A DNA stretch of 64,000 nt from Arcobacter lacus (GTDB taxonomy: Bacteria > Campylobacterota > Campylobacteria > Campylobacterales > Arcobacteraceae): assembly GCF_003063295.1 (NCBI RefSeq), contig NZ_MUXF01000001.1, positions 124,001 through 188,000 on the forward strand. Reading direction: 5' to 3'. Under the pieces are notes generated by a model that was given only the letters and a program-made list of their open reading frames with translations, was not told where the DNA came from and searched no databases. This document shows positions 5,796-13,413 of this stretch, in pieces. Within the stretch, counting starts at the first letter, position 1. Each line of letters starts with the position of its first letter. Both the position numbers and the translations under genes were made by a program.

Positions 5796-6776
5796 TTAGA
5801 TTGGTAAAACTCTTATATTATCATCAATTTTTTGTTGTAAAACTGATTCTATTGCATATAATGTTCCTGTACTTCCAGATGCACAACCAGAACACGAACC
5901 TAAATATCTAATATACAAATCGTAGTGTGGTAAATTTTCTTTTATATCAATAATTTCCATATTTCCACCATCCATTACAAGCATAGGTCTAATATCTTCA
6001 TCAAGAACACTATCAATTGCTTTTATTCTTTGAACTAATGTCATTTCACCAAATGATATAGTTCCAGAGGCACTTGCATTCGCAGCATTTTTAAGTTTTT
6101 CTTGCTCCATTTCAGCTCTTACATCTTTTAAAATATCAACCAAATATATATCTTTTTCTTCATGTCCACCAGGTCTAATACATGATTTACAAAATGCTCC
6201 AGCTTTTGTATAATCAGTTATTTCTTCAACTGTTTTTAAATTATTTATTCTAATAACTTCTTTTAATGTTGCTAATGAAACTCTTGCACACTCACAAACA
6301 ATCTGTTCTTCTTCAAAAGAGTCAATATCAACTCCCTTGTATTCAGCTGCAGCTTTTTTAATAACATCATAAGCCATAACTGAACAGTGCATTTTTTGAG
6401 GTGGAACAGCTGGCGTTTCTGGATTATCTCTTAAGGCAAATTCAACATCAATATTTGTAATTTTTACAGCTTCATCAACTGTTTTTCCAATACAAAGTTC
6501 AGCCATAACATCTGAAGATGCAATTGCAGTACCGCATCCAAAAGATTTAAATTTTGATTCTAAAATTTTATGCGTTTTTTCATCAACTGCCCAATAAAGT
6601 CTAACAGCATCACCACATGATTCAGCTCCAAAATCAGCAACAATTAATTTTGCGCCAAGTTCAGCTGCTCTTTCTTCAGTGATTTCACCTTGGTGTTTTG
6701 GATTATTCATTCTATTTACAACTTGATTTGAGTATTCATCCCAAATTGAACCACTAATTAAACTATTTTTTGCCAT
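5796..6776 (-). CDS. nifU: Fe-S cluster scaffold NifU (three-domain)
   Basis: NifU is the scaffold on which NifS-derived sulfur and iron assemble into clusters. Three domains are visible. The IscU-like part has cluster ligands C54, C81 and C131. The central BFD-like ferredoxin part has C161, C163, C196 and C199 for a permanent [2Fe-2S] cluster. The C-terminal NifU domain has the C295-S-G-C298 motif. At 326 residues it is full length for the Campylobacterota housekeeping NifU. No nitrogenase genes are nearby, so the role is general maturation. It follows nifS by 30 bases in the same operon. Confidence 0.96.
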   Translation of the reverse strand: MAKNSLISGSIWDEYSNQVVNRMNNPKHQGEITEERAAELGAKLIVADFGAESCGDAVRLYWAVDEKTHKILESKFKSFGCGTAIASSDVMAELCIGKTVDEAVKITNIDVEFALRDNPETPAVPPQKMHCSVMAYDVIKKAAAEYKGVDIDSFEEEQIVCECARVSLATLKEVIRINNLKTVEEITDYTKAGAFCKSCIRPGGHEEKDIYLVDILKDVRAEMEQEKLKNAANASASGTISFGEMTLVQRIKAIDSVLDEDIRPMLVMDGGNMEIIDIKENLPHYDLYIRYLGSCSGCASGSTGTLYAIESVLQQKIDDNIRVLPI

Positions 6777-6806: not shown

Positions 6807-8027
<1,221 letters not shown>

Positions 8028-8056
8028 TTAAAAAATTTTCTTGTATTCTATTTAAA

Positions 8057-8077
8057 ATAGGATAAATTTTGTCTTAA
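8057..8077. promoter_or_regulatory. Candidate operator 1, nifS side
   Basis: An inverted repeat: ATAGGATAA, three bases, TTGTCTTAA. The two arms match at six of nine positions. It sits at about the -35 position of the likely nifS promoter, with TAGAAT on the minus strand at 8045-8050, so bound protein should block RNA polymerase. The same element recurs at 8189-8209. The regulator is unknown; an Rrf2/IscR-type Fe-S sensor is an inference from the genes served. Confidence 0.6.
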
Positions 8078-8140
8078 TTAACTACTTAATTAAAGTAAGA
8101 TGATATTTTATCATCAATAGCATTAATTTTTTAAGATTTA

Positions 8141-8169
8141 TTGAATTATATGCCTTTACATTGTATACT
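8141..8169 (+). promoter_or_regulatory. Sigma-70-type promoter of the suf operon
   Basis: TTGAAT at 8141-8146 and TATACT at 8164-8169 are separated by 17 bases, an excellent vegetative promoter for this AT-rich genome. Transcription would start near 8176, leaving a leader of about 57 bases before the sufB ATG at 8233. It runs through the upstream TTG at 8161, which argues against that codon as a start. Confidence 0.65.
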
Positions 8170-8188
8170 AAATATGATAATATTCCAA

Positions 8189-8209
8189 ATAGGATAATTT
8201 TTGTCTTAT
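8189..8209. promoter_or_regulatory. Candidate operator 2, sufB side
   Basis: ATAGGATAA, three bases, TTGTCTTAT: a 9-3-9 inverted repeat with seven of nine arm positions matching. It agrees with operator 1 (8057-8077) at 19 of 21 positions. It lies about 13 to 33 bases downstream of the predicted suf transcription start, a position typical of repression. Confidence 0.65.
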
Positions 8210-8232: not shown

Positions 8233-9669
8233 ATGAGTGACAATCAACAAATACATGACGTAATAAACAAAGAATATAAATTAGGATTTGAAACTTTAGT
8301 TCAAAGTGATACTTTTGAAAAAGGTTTAAATGAAGATGTTATAAGAGCAATTAGTGCAAAAAAGGATGAACCTTCTTGGCTTTTAGATTTTAGATTAAAG
8401 GCTTATGAAAAATGGTTAAAAATGGAAGAGCCAACTTGGGCGAACTTAAAATATCCAAAAATTGATTACCAAGATATAGCTTATTATTCAGCACCTAAAA
8501 GAGCTTTGAATTCACTTGATGAAGTTGACCCAGAAATTTTAAAAACTTATGAGAAACTTGGAATTCCACTTGAAGAGCAAAAACAGTTAGCTGGTGTTGC
8601 AGTTGATGCAGTATTTGATTCAGTTTCTGTAAAAACAACTTATCAAGAAGAACTTGAAAAATTAGGAATTATATTTTGTTCAATTAGTGAAGCAGCACAC
8701 AAATATCCAGAACTTGTAAAAAATTATTTAGCAAGTGTTGTTCCAACTGTTGATAATTATTTTTCCTGTTTAAATAGTGCAGTATTTACAGATGGAAGTT
8801 TTGTATATATTCCACCAAATACAAGATGTCCAATGGAACTTTCAACTTATTTTAGAATAAATGCTTTAAATACAGGACAATTTGAAAGAACTTTAATAAT
8901 CTGTGATGAAAATAGTTATGTATCTTATAATGAAGGTTGTTCTGCTCCAACAAGAGATGAAAGACAACTTCACGCAGCAGTTGTTGAATTATGTGCATTA
9001 AAAAATGCTCATATAAAATATTCAACTATTCAAAACTGGTTTCCAGGAGATGATAAAGGAAAAGGTGGAATATTAAATTTTGTTACTAAAAGAGGTTTGT
9101 GTAAAGGAGATAATTCAAAAATATCTTGGACACAAGTTGAAACTGGAAGTGCAATAACTTGGAAATATCCATCTTGTGTACTTCAAGGAGATAATAGTGT
9201 TGGAGAGTTTTATTCAGTTGCTATTGCTTCAAAATCTCAACAAGCAGATACTGGAACAAAAATGATTCATCTTGGAAAAAATACAAAATCAACTATTATT
9301 TCAAAAGGTATTTCAGCAATGCATGGAATAAATGGATATAGAGGACTTGTAAAAGTTGGAAAAAATGCACAAAATGCAAGAAATATATCTGAATGTGACT
9401 CACTTTTAATAGGACACAAATGTCAAGCTCATACATATCCATATCATGAAATAAGAAATAGTAGTGCAAATATAGAGCATGAAGCAACAACTTCAAAAAT
9501 ATCTGATGAACAACTTTTTTACTTAAATCAAAGAGGAATTGATGAAGAAAATGCGATAGCTATGATAGTGAATGGTTTTTGTAAAGAGGTTTTAAAAGAG
9601 TTACCAATGGAGTTTGCTGCTGAGGCAAAAGAGTTATTAAATATATCACTTGAAGGAAGTGTGGGGTAA
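8233..9669 (+). CDS. sufB: Fe-S cluster assembly protein SufB
   Basis: SufB is the scaffold subunit of the SufBCD complex, on which clusters are built under iron limitation or oxidative stress. The protein shows the SufB beta-helix core and the C-terminal motif with E-rich [13 protein letters not shown], matched in SufD. The frame is open from a TTG at 8161, but I choose the ATG at 8233 (478 residues). It has a GGAG site eight bases upstream, and the TTG lies on the -10 of a good promoter with an operator between them. sufC follows after three bases. Confidence 0.95.
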
Positions 9670-9672
9670 ATT

Positions 9673-10443
9673 ATGAGTAAAAAATTATTATTAAAAATTG
9701 AAGATTTAAAAGTTAGTATAAAAGATAAAGAGATTTTAAAAGGTCTAAATTTAGAGATAAATGAAGGTGAAGTTCATGTTCTTATGGGAACAAATGGTGC
9801 AGGAAAATCAACTTTGGTAAAAACTTTAAGTGCTCATTATGACTGTGTTGTAAATGAAGGAAAAATCACTTATAAAAATAAAAACTTACTTGAAATGGAT
9901 GTTGCACAAAGAGCAAATGAAGGTATTTTTATGAGCTTTCAAAGTCCAGTTGAAGTTCCAGGAGTAAATAATAGCTATTTTTTAAAAACAGCTTTAAATG
10001 AAAAAAGAGTTTACCAAGGATTAGAACCAATTGATGCAATGGAGTTTTTAAAACATATAAAAGAAGAAACAGCAAAATTTAATATAGATAGAAAACTTCT
10101 ACAAAGAGATTTAAATGATGGTTTTAGTGGTGGAGAAAAGAAAAGAAATGAGTTAGTTCAACTTCTTATGTTGCAACCTGATTTGATTATGCTTGACGAA
10201 ATCGATAGTGGACTTGATGTTGATGCTATCAAAACTGTTGCAAATGTTATAAATTCTATGCTTGATGGAAAACGTTCTATTTTGATGATTACTCACTATG
10301 ATAGATTAATTGAATTAATAAAACCAGATTTTGTTCATATTTTAAATGATGGAAAAATAGCAAAAACAGGAGATTATAACTTAGCTTTAGAACTAGATGA
10401 AAAAGGTTATGAAGCAATAGGAATAAAAGATGAAAATAGATGA
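9673..10443 (+). CDS. sufC: Fe-S assembly ATPase SufC
   Basis: SufC is the ABC-type ATPase that drives conformational change in SufBCD. Walker A GTNGAGKST is at residues 39-47, the signature FSGGEKKR at 151-158, and Walker B LIMLDEIDSGLD follows near 170. The FSGGE form and the EIDSGLD ending are the usual SufC variants. The length of 256 is normal. It starts three bases after sufB and its end overlaps the start of sufD by 14 bases, so translation is coupled. Confidence 0.97.
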   Translation: MSKKLLLKIEDLKVSIKDKEILKGLNLEINEGEVHVLMGTNGAGKSTLVKTLSAHYDCVVNEGKITYKNKNLLEMDVAQRANEGIFMSFQSPVEVPGVNNSYFLKTALNEKRVYQGLEPIDAMEFLKHIKEETAKFNIDRKLLQRDLNDGFSGGEKKRNELVQLLMLQPDLIMLDEIDSGLDVDAIKTVANVINSMLDGKRSILMITHYDRLIELIKPDFVHILNDGKIAKTGDYNLALELDEKGYEAIGIKDENR

Positions 10444-11461
10444 AATAAAAACAATCACTCTTCCAAAAAAAAGAGATGAAGAGTTTTTAAAAATAAATTT
10501 TGAAGCCCTATTCTCTTATGATTTTAAAAATGTTAAAAATTTTGAATTTGATAAAAATCTAAAGACAATAAAAGATGAAAACTCTTATGAATCAATTTTA
10601 TTTTCTATTGTAAAAAACTTTGATGAAAACCAAAAAGTTTTAGTTATAGACAAAGCTATAAATGAACCAATTATTTTAATTCATAACATGAAAGAAGATG
10701 AAACTTTTTTTACAAATTCTCTTAGAATCGAAGTAAAAGAAAATATCAAAGCTTCTATTATCGAACTTTTTGTAAATAGTTCAAATAACTCTTGTTTTGC
10801 AGTTAATAGAAATATAGTTTTAGAAAAAAATGCTTCTTTAGAGTATGTAAAAATTCAAGATATAGATTTATCAAATTCTATGATTTTTGCTACTTCTTGT
10901 GAACAAAATGAAAATTCAAATCTTGAAATCTCAAATTTTGAGTTTGGAGAAGGATTTATAGTAAATAGCTTTGAAAATATCATAAATAAAGAGTTTATAA
11001 ATTATGAATTAAATGGTTTAACAAAACTAAAAGATAGTTCTAATACTTCAACTTTAGTAAAAACTATTCATAATGAGAAAAATTCAACAAGTTTTGTAAA
11101 TTATAAAAATAGTTTAAAAGATAAATCAAGAGCTGTTATAAAAATAAAATCTATTGTAAATCAAAATGCTCAATTTACAAAAGCATTTCAAAATTGTAAT
11201 ACAATTTTATTAAGTGATGATGCAACTATTTTTGCACAACCTCATCTTGAAATATATATAGATGAACTAGAAGCAAGTCATGGAGCAACAACTGGAACTT
11301 TAAATGAAGAACAACTTTTATATCTTCAATCAAGAGGAATTAGAAAAGAAAAAGCTTATGATATGCTTCTTAATGCATTTGAAAGTTCAATCAAAGATAA
11401 TATAAAAGATGAAAAAATAAAAGAATTTATAGAAAACTATAAAAAGGAAAAATATGTTTAA
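10430..11461 (+). CDS. sufD: Fe-S assembly protein SufD
   Basis: SufD is the SufB paralogue that completes the SufBC2D complex and helps iron delivery. Overall similarity is low, as usual for SufD. The C-terminal block with H-G-A-T-T-G and EEQLLYLQSRGI (about residues 280-305) is diagnostic and pairs with the same block in SufB. At 343 residues it is somewhat shorter than E. coli SufD, mainly in the N-terminal helical part. It overlaps sufC by 14 bases and sufS by 8. Confidence 0.92.
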   Translation: MKIDEIKTITLPKKRDEEFLKINFEALFSYDFKNVKNFEFDKNLKTIKDENSYESILFSIVKNFDENQKVLVIDKAINEPIILIHNMKEDETFFTNSLRIEVKENIKASIIELFVNSSNNSCFAVNRNIVLEKNASLEYVKIQDIDLSNSMIFATSCEQNENSNLEISNFEFGEGFIVNSFENIINKEFINYELNGLTKLKDSSNTSTLVKTIHNEKNSTSFVNYKNSLKDKSRAVIKIKSIVNQNAQFTKAFQNCNTILLSDDATIFAQPHLEIYIDELEASHGATTGTLNEEQLLYLQSRGIRKEKAYDMLLNAFESSIKDNIKDEKIKEFIENYKKEKYV

Positions 11462-12638
11462 AAATGATTTTCCATATTTTCAAAATTCGAAAACTACATA
11501 TTTAGACAATGGAGCAACAACACAAAAACCTAAAAGTGTTATTGATTCGCAAGTTGAGTATTATGAGCACTATTGTTCAAATACACATAGAAGTAACTTT
11601 GGTGATGCAAACAAAGCAACTTTAGAGTTTGAAAAAACTAGAAAAATATTAAAAGAGTTTATTAATGCTTCTAAAAAAGAAGAAATCATCTTCACAAAAG
11701 GTGTTACAGAATCTTTAAATTTTATAGCAACTTCATTTGCAAAAGATTTTAAGACTGTAATAATTTCAAGTTTAGAACACCACTCAAATATTGTTCCTTG
11801 GCATATGCAAGGAAGAACTTTAGGTTTGGGACTTGAAGTTGTAAATTGTGATGATAACTTAAATTTTGATATGAATCATTTTGAAGAACTTTTAAAAGCA
11901 AAGCCAAATGCTTTTGTAAGTATCACGCATATTTCAAATGCTTTTGGAAAAATCCATGATATAGAAGCTATTACAAAACTTGCACACTCTTATGGTGCGG
12001 TAGTTATGATTGATGGTGCTCAAAGTTTAGCTCATACAAGTATTGATGTACAAGCACTTGATGTTGATTTTTTTGCAATTTCAGGACACAAAACTTTTGC
12101 ACCAACAGGAGTTGGAGCAATTTATATAAAAGAAAAATATCTAAAAGATGTAAAACCATATCAAACAGGAGGAGCAACTATTCACGAAGTTGATTTTAGT
12201 GGTTCAACTTTACTTGATTCTCCTTATAAATTTGAAGCAGGAACTCAAAATATAGCTGGTGTTATAGGATTTGGAAAAGCTTTAGAATACTTAAATTATG
12301 TAAAATATGAAAATATACAAAGTATAGAACATAATGTTTTTAAATATTTAGATGAAGAGTTAGCAAAACTTCCTGATATTGTATTTTATAATGATTTAGA
12401 AAATTGTGTAGGAAGTAGAAGTTTCAATTTCAAAGGTATAGTTCACGATGATATTGGAATACTTTTAGATAAGATGAAAATTGCAGTAAGAGTTGGTCAT
12501 CACTGTGCTCAACCAATTATGAAAAAACTTGGAATAAAAGGAACAATAAGAGTTAGTATCTCTTTTTATAATGATTATGTAGATGTTGATAATCTTATAA
12601 CTGCACTAAAAAAAGCTTTGAATATGTTAAGGGATTGA
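11454..12638 (+). CDS. sufS: Cysteine desulfurase SufS
   Basis: This class II cysteine desulfurase supplies sulfur to SufBCD through SufE. The PLP-binding lysine is K213 in SGHKTFAP and the active-site cysteine is C351 in VGHHCAQP. It lacks the extended Cys loop of NifS/IscS, which explains its need for SufE. The length of 394 is normal. It is the window's second desulfurase after nifS and belongs to the opposite operon. It overlaps sufD by eight bases; sufE follows after one base. Confidence 0.96.
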   Translation: MFKNDFPYFQNSKTTYLDNGATTQKPKSVIDSQVEYYEHYCSNTHRSNFGDANKATLEFEKTRKILKEFINASKKEEIIFTKGVTESLNFIATSFAKDFKTVIISSLEHHSNIVPWHMQGRTLGLGLEVVNCDDNLNFDMNHFEELLKAKPNAFVSITHISNAFGKIHDIEAITKLAHSYGAVVMIDGAQSLAHTSIDVQALDVDFFAISGHKTFAPTGVGAIYIKEKYLKDVKPYQTGGATIHEVDFSGSTLLDSPYKFEAGTQNIAGVIGFGKALEYLNYVKYENIQSIEHNVFKYLDEELAKLPDIVFYNDLENCVGSRSFNFKGIVHDDIGILLDKMKIAVRVGHHCAQPIMKKLGIKGTIRVSISFYNDYVDVDNLITALKKALNMLRD

Positions 12639-12639
12639 T

Positions 12640-13050
12640 ATGAGTACAATAGAACAAAGAGTTGAAGAGATAAAAGATGATTTAGATTTTTTTGATGATG
12701 AACTAGCAAAATATGAATATATTATAGATTTAGGTAAAAAGTTAGAAGAGTTTGATGAAAAAGATAAAACTCCTGAAAATATAGTTCATGGTTGTACTTC
12801 TCAAGTTTGGTTAACTTGTGAAAATAAAGATGGAAAATTATATTTTTACGGAACAAGTGATGCAATAATAGTAAAAGGTTTAGTTTATATGATACTTCAA
12901 ATTTTTTCTGGTTCAACTATACAAGAATTAAAAGATGTTGATATGGACATAGTTCATGAACTAAATTTAAGTGAAGTTATAACTCCAAATAGACAAAGTG
13001 GAGTTATTGGAATGATAAAAAAAATAAAAGAGTATGCTTTAAAAGCTTAA
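12640..13050 (+). CDS. sufE: Sulfur acceptor SufE
   Basis: SufE accepts persulfide from SufS and passes it to SufB. The acceptor cysteine is C52 in the conserved HGCTSQVWL. The 136-residue length and the preceding motif (KTPENIVHGC) are typical of the family. The ATG overlaps the downstream side of the sufS stop with only one base between the genes, and sufT-like follows after nine bases. Confidence 0.95.
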   Translation: MSTIEQRVEEIKDDLDFFDDELAKYEYIIDLGKKLEEFDEKDKTPENIVHGCTSQVWLTCENKDGKLYFYGTSDAIIVKGLVYMILQIFSGSTIQELKDVDMDIVHELNLSEVITPNRQSGVIGMIKKIKEYALKA

Positions 13051-13059
13051 GGATTTAAA

Positions 13060-13413
13060 ATGGAAGATAAAGTTTTTGATTTAGAGAATGTAAAAGAAAA
13101 AATAATAGAAAATTTAAAAAAAGTATATGACCCAGAAATTCCAGCAGATGTTTACAATCTTGGATTAATATATGAAATAAATCTTGAAGAGAGAAGTAAT
13201 TATTTATATTGCGAGATAGATATGACACTTACAAGTCCAACTTGTCCTGTTGCAGATAGTTTACTAGAACAAGTAAGATATGTAACAATGGCTGTAGATG
13301 AAGTAGATGAAGTAAAAGTAAATCTTGTATTTGAACCTGTTTGGGACCCTTCAATGATGAGTGAAGATGCAAAAGAGATAATGGGAGTTAGCGGAGCTGC
13401 AATAGGTTTTTAA
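13060..13413 (+). CDS. SufT/MIP18-like Fe-S assembly factor (DUF59)
   Basis: This is a single DUF59/MIP18 domain of 117 residues. The motif DPEIPADVYNLGLIY is near residues 24-38, and the reactive cysteine C62 lies in TSPTCPVAD. Family members such as SufT and PaaD-like proteins help mature particular Fe-S targets. The position at the end of the suf operon supports that role. A weak hairpin at 13400-13421 covers the stop codon, without a real U-run, so termination here is uncertain. Confidence 0.88.
   Translation: MEDKVFDLENVKEKIIENLKKVYDPEIPADVYNLGLIYEINLEERSNYLYCEIDMTLTSPTCPVADSLLEQVRYVTMAVDEVDEVKVNLVFEPVWDPSMMSEDAKEIMGVSGAAIGF

Follow-up and report, generated by a model that had tools for sequence, protein, structure and literature searches.

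A palindrome shared by the nifS and sufB promoters of Arcobacter lacus suggests common control of Fe-S assembly by an IscR-like Rrf2 regulator

The closest described counterpart of the system considered here is IscR of Escherichia coli and Pseudomonas, a protein of the Rrf2 fold family which has Fe-S assembly operons among its targets. The type 1 site of E. coli IscR is the 25-bp sequence ATASYYGACTRWWWYAGTCRRSTAT (PMC3899308). The protein uses a site of this type at isc and a type 2 site at suf, leaves type 1 sites upon loss or oxidation of its cluster, and has the SelO (ydiU) promoter among those dependent on it (PMC12594620). The cluster ligands of IscR were given as Cys92, Cys98, Cys104 and His107 (PMC8593673), those of the [4Fe-4S] cluster of Streptomyces coelicolor NsrR as three Cys and Asp8 (PMC5411485). 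RirA and Rhodobacter IscR were described as members of the Rrf2 family that repress genes of iron and Fe-S metabolism by way of palindromes (PMC4618611, PMC5863699). A dedicated suf regulator is also found in cyanobacteria, although this protein, SufR, belongs to the DeoR family (PMC8593673).

We analysed a 64-kb stretch of the A. lacus genome, referred to as the window, in which nifS and sufB diverge from a common intergenic region (Table 1). The first-pass annotation of this DNA had assigned NIF genes to one side and SUF genes to the other, which the Pfam profiles bear out, and had drawn attention to one palindrome placed in front of both operons. The palindrome was indeed found there: the intergenic region holds two exact copies of ATAGGATAA-N3-TTGTCTTAW, an arrangement of half-sites also written as ATAGGATAA-N3-TTGTCTTA(A/T), which together make a 21-bp palindrome of roughly ATARGAYWANNNTWRTCYTAT. 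The copies are identical to each other at 19 of 21 positions and are the only exact matches in the window. When up to 3 mismatches were allowed, the window contained four matches against a shuffle mean of 0.71, and none of 100 shuffles got to four.

Table 1. Features of the nifS-sufB region of A. lacus (positions are those of the window)
Feature	Position	Strand	Basis or remark
Putative operator copy 1, nifS side, over the nifS -35 region	8057..8077	.	Exact match, ATAGGATAAATTTTGTCTTAA
Putative operator copy 2, suf side, at about the suf transcription start	8189..8209	.	Exact match, ATAGGATAATTTTTGTCTTAT
nifS promoter, likely -10 element TAGAATAC	8043..8050	-	By eye; spacing to the site constant in relatives
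suf promoter, likely -10 region TATGATAATATT	8172..8184	+	By eye; like element in several relatives
nifS, cysteine desulfurase	6807..8003	-	Pfam PF00266, 6.9e-82
nifU, three-domain scaffold protein	5796..6776	-	Pfam NifU_N, Fer2_BFD, NifU
sufB, start ATG 8233	8233..9669	+	Pfam SUFBD_core; N terminus conserved in relatives
Remaining suf operon: sufC, sufD, sufS-type desulfurase, sufE, DUF59 (FeS_assembly_P) protein	9673..13413	+	Pfam, five ORFs

Inspection by eye of 23 nifS-type sites revealed a -10 element resembling TAGAAT, TAAAAT or TATAAT 6 bases past the site. On the other side, an element like TATGATAA precedes the suf copy in several genomes (also by eye), which would place this copy at about the transcription start. 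A promoter consensus scan returned weak promoter-like sites overlapping the likely suf -10 region, the total of 6 for the scan being not clearly higher than in shuffles (3.3, sd 1.9). The suf copy had previously been placed just after the predicted suf start; instead, it lies upstream of sufB, as TTG 8161 is merely the first start codon of a mechanically delimited ORF, and the conserved N terminus of SufB starts at the ATG located 23 bases beyond the copy.

The site is strongly conserved in front of sufB. SufB was found in 68 of 89 genomes of the family, one of which (G021) was left out due to truncation of sufB at a contig end. In the interval from -350 to +60 bp of the start, the remaining 67 sufB genes have an exact site in 13 cases, a site with at most 1 mismatch in 48 and with at most 3 mismatches in 66, some of these sites being the nifS-side copy. 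When only sites at most 140 bp from the start were counted, 63/65 genomes had one at up to 3 mismatches and 37/65 at up to 1, compared with 0.6 and 0 in shuffles. Two genomes with a split sufB, G077 and G078, were left out of this shuffle test. As both have an exact site, 65 of 67 family genomes carry one at up to 3 mismatches in this interval, G012 and G055 being the exceptions. In the genus of A. lacus the core has drifted to GATAA-N3-TTATC, and 21 of its 27 genomes have a copy of the nifS type at a distance of over 150 bp ahead of sufB. Elsewhere in the family the sufB site reads ATAGGACWAWWWTWGTCCTAT, and 40 sufB sites of other genera have the GAC...GTC form. The search for relatives of SufB yielded 80 loci, most of them from distant phyla; the A. 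lacus protein matches that of an Arcobacter MAG (L053) at 87%, and in this MAG sites are present at -109 and -51 of sufB. As a separate matter, in the split sufB genes (G077:C19 and G078:C7) the short N-terminal piece includes three in-frame stops in both genomes, which could reflect a frameshift or a new start.

The genome of A. lacus encodes three proteins of the Rrf2 family and four that clearly belong to the Fur family. One of the Rrf2 genes lies next to rpsO, outside the window (G000:C1:348609-349004), and its product passes the superfamily profiles PF02082 (105.7 bits, cut-off 30) and TIGR00738 (113.9 bits, cut-off 73.3). Of the 89 family genomes, 85 contain an ortholog of this protein with at least 48% identity; no match was obtained in G034 and G036, and only a weak one in G043 and G046. 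Across the class, the ortholog was found at 1e-20 in 208 of 298 genomes. The class pattern of the motif, ATARGAYNANNNTNRTCYTAT, matches 40 of the 298 (10 for the reversed control), and its presence follows that of the ortholog: 40/208 genomes with the rpsO-linked protein match, and 0/90 of those without it (Fisher 3e-7, with kinship between genomes ignored).

A similar relationship was apparent at nifS. Among family genomes devoid of SufB, a site at up to 2 mismatches precedes nifS in 14 of 18 loci. For the comparison outside the family, a sample of 69 genomes was reduced by those read earlier (G033, G039, G043, G046), those with no nifS match (G100, G116) or weak nifS matches only (G091, G181, G286), and those with no start (G103, G105), while G115, where the ortholog was not found at 1e-20 and which has no site, was kept separate from the counts. 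At up to 2 mismatches, the site was present in 24 of the 40 resulting genomes with the Rrf2 ortholog versus 0 of the 17 without it (shuffles, 0.12 and 0.05, respectively); at up to 3 mismatches, in 35/40 versus 1/17 (shuffles, 1.4 and 0.5). We take families f3, f2 and f7 to be Campylobacter-like, Helicobacter-like and Sulfurimonas-like, respectively. The site is present in f3 but is mostly AAARGATAAWWWTTATCCTAA, and the exact class pattern therefore misses it. No nifS site was found in family f5, in which the three genomes read have weak Rrf2 orthologs, a fourth being uncertain. Within genus g5, the palindrome at nifS is retained by eye in G033 and G035, where the ortholog is present, and not in G034 and G036, where it is absent; this contrast carries little weight because mismatch counts do not separate the two pairs. 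Recurrence of the motif before nifS and sufB in related genomes, expected from the first-pass annotation, was thus borne out at both genes, and the poor conservation that it had named as a refutation did not occur.

Excess of the motif over chance was also evident at the scale of the 2.2-Mb genome, where the symmetrised palindrome ATARGAYAANNNTTRTCYTAT occurs at six places with at most 1 mismatch, compared with a mean of 0.5 in Markov sequence of the same length (two orders, 6 runs each). No excess was seen genome-wide at exactly 2 mismatches (5 places versus 6-7 simulated), and at up to 3 mismatches there were 82 places versus 64 for the reversed-pattern control; the excess is limited to 0-1 mismatch. 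The reversed pattern is a partly contaminated control, since in the genus of A. lacus it matches the nifS promoter itself, where the -10 element combined with one half-site resembles the reversed pattern, and we therefore relied on simulation and shuffles. As the motif is far rarer in shuffled and simulated DNA, the second anticipated refutation, equal frequency at random positions, did not materialise either. One of the four sites outside the window is located 44 bp upstream of mrp/apbC; A. lacus sites also precede a gene of HAD phosphatase together with a divergent small protein, as well as katG and the gene of a di-haem cytochrome c peroxidase, the latter two having been examined in A. lacus. 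The exact palindrome was found in 36 of 89 family genomes (reversed control, 5/89), and the 29 loci read from this search include sufB, HAD phosphatase, SelO, hemerythrin-PAS protein and flavodoxin-like genes, and a peroxiredoxin gene accompanied by a superoxide-reductase-like one. Some of the sites are intragenic and possibly fortuitous. SelO (ydiU) has the motif in four genomes (L027, L031, L048, L049). In one genus of family f7, a gene of the Mrp/ApbC type (by sequence) stands behind the motif in 10 of 10 loci read (L269-L278), and in other genomes the palindrome is upstream of genes of mrp/apbC type, superoxide reductase and peroxiredoxin.

Two groups of loci deserve separate mention. The motif lies between the HAD phosphatase gene and a gene of a small membrane-anchored or SafE-like protein in L004, L024, L026, L030, L032, L033, L037, L038, L039 and L040; the small protein of A. 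lacus has no Pfam match. In four family genomes (L028, L029, L034, L044) the motif is found 20-80 bp upstream of the hemerythrin-PAS protein gene, which may hint at a control linked to NO or oxygen.

Comparison with IscR revealed likeness in both the protein and the DNA. The nearest solved structure by sequence to the rpsO-linked protein is that of IscR; its score with the IscR equivalog profile TIGR02010, 78.7 bits, is nevertheless far below the cut-off of 207.55, and the NCBIfam profiles of RirA, NsrR and CymR gave 57.7, 38.4 and 39.6 bits against cut-offs of 193, 182 and 195. All 26 orthologs in the alignment share residues C91, C98, C106 and Glu8. Three invariant cysteines together with an acidic eighth residue recall NsrR, although the profile score and the Fe-S and oxidant genes found here as targets differ from that protein. 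Unlike IscR, the A. lacus protein has the spacing CX6CX7C, with no His three residues past the last Cys and no conserved His beyond the third cysteine in the orthologs, and its gene is placed beside rpsO rather than within an isc operon. As regards DNA, the 13-base core of the IscR type 1 site, GACTRWWWYAGTC, occurs exactly five times in 39,200 bases of DNA upstream of sufB and nifS (about 0.02 expected by chance, by our own estimate), each time inside the palindrome, in genera and families other than that of A. lacus. The ATA...TAT ends of the type 1 operator are shared as well, but they stand two bases closer on each side, giving 21 bp in total instead of the 25 reported for IscR. The earlier statement that the half-site is not of the IscR, RirA or Fur consensus needs two adjustments: the motif has an affinity to that of IscR, as an exact type 1 core is possible in other genera, and the form found in the genus of A. 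lacus, GATAA-N3-TTATC, has Fur-box spacing. A single type of site serves NIF and SUF here, whereas two types were described for E. coli; SelO, on the other hand, would be a target common to both systems. RirA and Rhodobacter IscR resemble the present system in the protein family, the palindromic nature of their sites and the iron and Fe-S genes controlled; the RirA profile score sets the former apart, and the box of the latter is given as 19 bp.

Proteins of the Fur family were considered first because of the GATAA-N3-TTATC core and of katG, peroxidase and ahpC among the targets, and were placed behind the Rrf2 protein by the comparison of sites between genera and by the co-occurrence table. 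The main rival explanation is that the sites are PerR boxes, through which a PerR-like protein of the Fur family would repress peroxide defence and Fe-S assembly. Genes of katG, cytochrome c peroxidase and ahpC, all found behind the motif, are typical targets of PerR, and a site with 2 mismatches is present upstream of the perR-like gene of A. lacus itself (G000:C10:28067; L009, L163). Moreover, palindromes such as AAAGGATAATTTTTATCCTTT, close to the Fe-S operator and with AAA/TTT ends, occur 110-220 bp upstream of perR in some of the relatives L165-L192 (e.g. in G016 and G083); this could mean that perR belongs to the targets as well, that the DNA recognised by the two regulators is similar, or that the sites are bound by PerR. 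However, no match of the motif at up to 3 mismatches was found upstream of perR in 13 of 30 cases, and many sites are of the GAC...GTC form, unlike the perR palindromes. Across the 298 class genomes the motif shows no association with PerR, being present in 34/261 genomes with PerR and 6/37 without it (p 0.61); it was found in 6 of 10 genomes which have the Rrf2 ortholog and no PerR, and in none of 63 with the opposite combination. We thus consider PerR an improbable binder.

Even less probable, and in our opinion hardly to be expected, is that the sites are Fur boxes of an iron-responsive regulon. In the genus of A. lacus the spacing of the core is that of TGATAATnATTATCA, one motif locus (L050) lies before a flavodoxin gene beside a gene of Fur type, and nifS of Helicobacter pylori is reportedly under Fur-dependent control. 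Nevertheless, the core GATAATnATTATC of the Fur consensus is kept within the genus and gives way to GAC...GTC in the sufB sites of other family genera, whose sequence is not a Fur box. It could also be proposed that another Rrf2 paralog binds the sites, as A. lacus encodes two more members of this family, of which one has three cysteines, and as G043 and G046 keep the sites while their Rrf2 match is weak and paralog-like only. This is very unlikely in view of eight site-bearing family genomes (G033, G040, G041, G044, G047, G048, G065, G066) in which the rpsO-linked type is the sole Rrf2 match (E 0.001). The other paralog (L018; G000:C16:405-737) is free of cysteines, is encoded between a metY-like gene and cysK, and gives its highest score with the CymR profile (111.8 bits against a cut-off of 195, which is not reached); it may therefore be a CymR-like cysteine regulator.

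Taken as genomic evidence, these results indicate that the two copies are probably operators of one regulator, and that this regulator is probably the IscR-like, rpsO-linked Rrf2 protein, which would act as a repressor. The idea of one regulator governing NIF and SUF, put forward in the first-pass annotation, is supported by the recurrence of the motif in relatives in front of either operon. The suggestion made there of a new or divergent Rrf2 protein is supported by the way the motif follows one Rrf2 ortholog and not PerR. The motif anticipated before an rrf2 gene was, however, not found: no site at up to 3 mismatches lies upstream of rrf2 in 30 of 30 loci, which gives no sign of autoregulation. 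Some further findings argue against the Rrf2 protein. Exact nifS sites are present in G043 and G046, two draft assemblies (270 and 190 contigs, respectively) in which the ortholog was not found and no such gene lies beside rpsO. Nearly all genomes devoid of the ortholog belong to one family, which means that independent losses are few. The exact class pattern occurs in only 40 of the 208 genomes that have the ortholog, and the similar palindrome upstream of perR in some relatives has been mentioned above.

A plausible mechanism would involve an Fe-S cluster held by Cys91, Cys98 and Cys106 of the rpsO-linked protein, perhaps with Glu8 as the fourth ligand. The form bearing the cluster would bind the 21-bp site and act as a repressor. 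With one copy over the nifS -35 region and the other at the suf transcription start, such binding would keep RNA polymerase from either promoter; the positions of the sites are compatible with repression. Shortage of clusters, or their damage by oxidants, would relieve this repression, for which the release of IscR from type 1 sites (PMC12594620) may serve as a model. Expression of NIF, SUF and Mrp, a cluster carrier, would then increase in concert with defence against peroxide and superoxide. We regard it as evenly balanced whether this protein is a general sensor of Fe-S homeostasis throughout the class of Arcobacter, Campylobacter and Sulfurimonas, forming an Rrf2 subfamily of its own whose likely ligands are three Cys and Glu8 and whose operator is compact, at 21 bp; NIF, SUF, Mrp, SelO and peroxide and superoxide defence would constitute one regulon, and one family, apparently Helicobacter-like, would have lost the protein and the operators together.

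Presence of the palindrome at both Fe-S operons, and the fact that it tracks one little-studied regulator, suggest a previously unrecognised switch of Fe-S supply in the Campylobacter group. In the literature covered, which included few subscription papers, we found no description of an Rrf2 regulator of Fe-S assembly, or of this operator, in the class. If the proposal is true, a widely conserved orphan regulator would gain a function and a ready list of target promoters, and an IscR-like operator would prove able to drift into a look-alike of the Fur box. A gene of Campylobacter jejuni 81-176 annotated as 'RrF2 family protein' was associated with a defect of mouse colonisation, whereas in rich medium the loss was small (PMC5438104, Table 1); this gene may be an ortholog of the rpsO-linked one.
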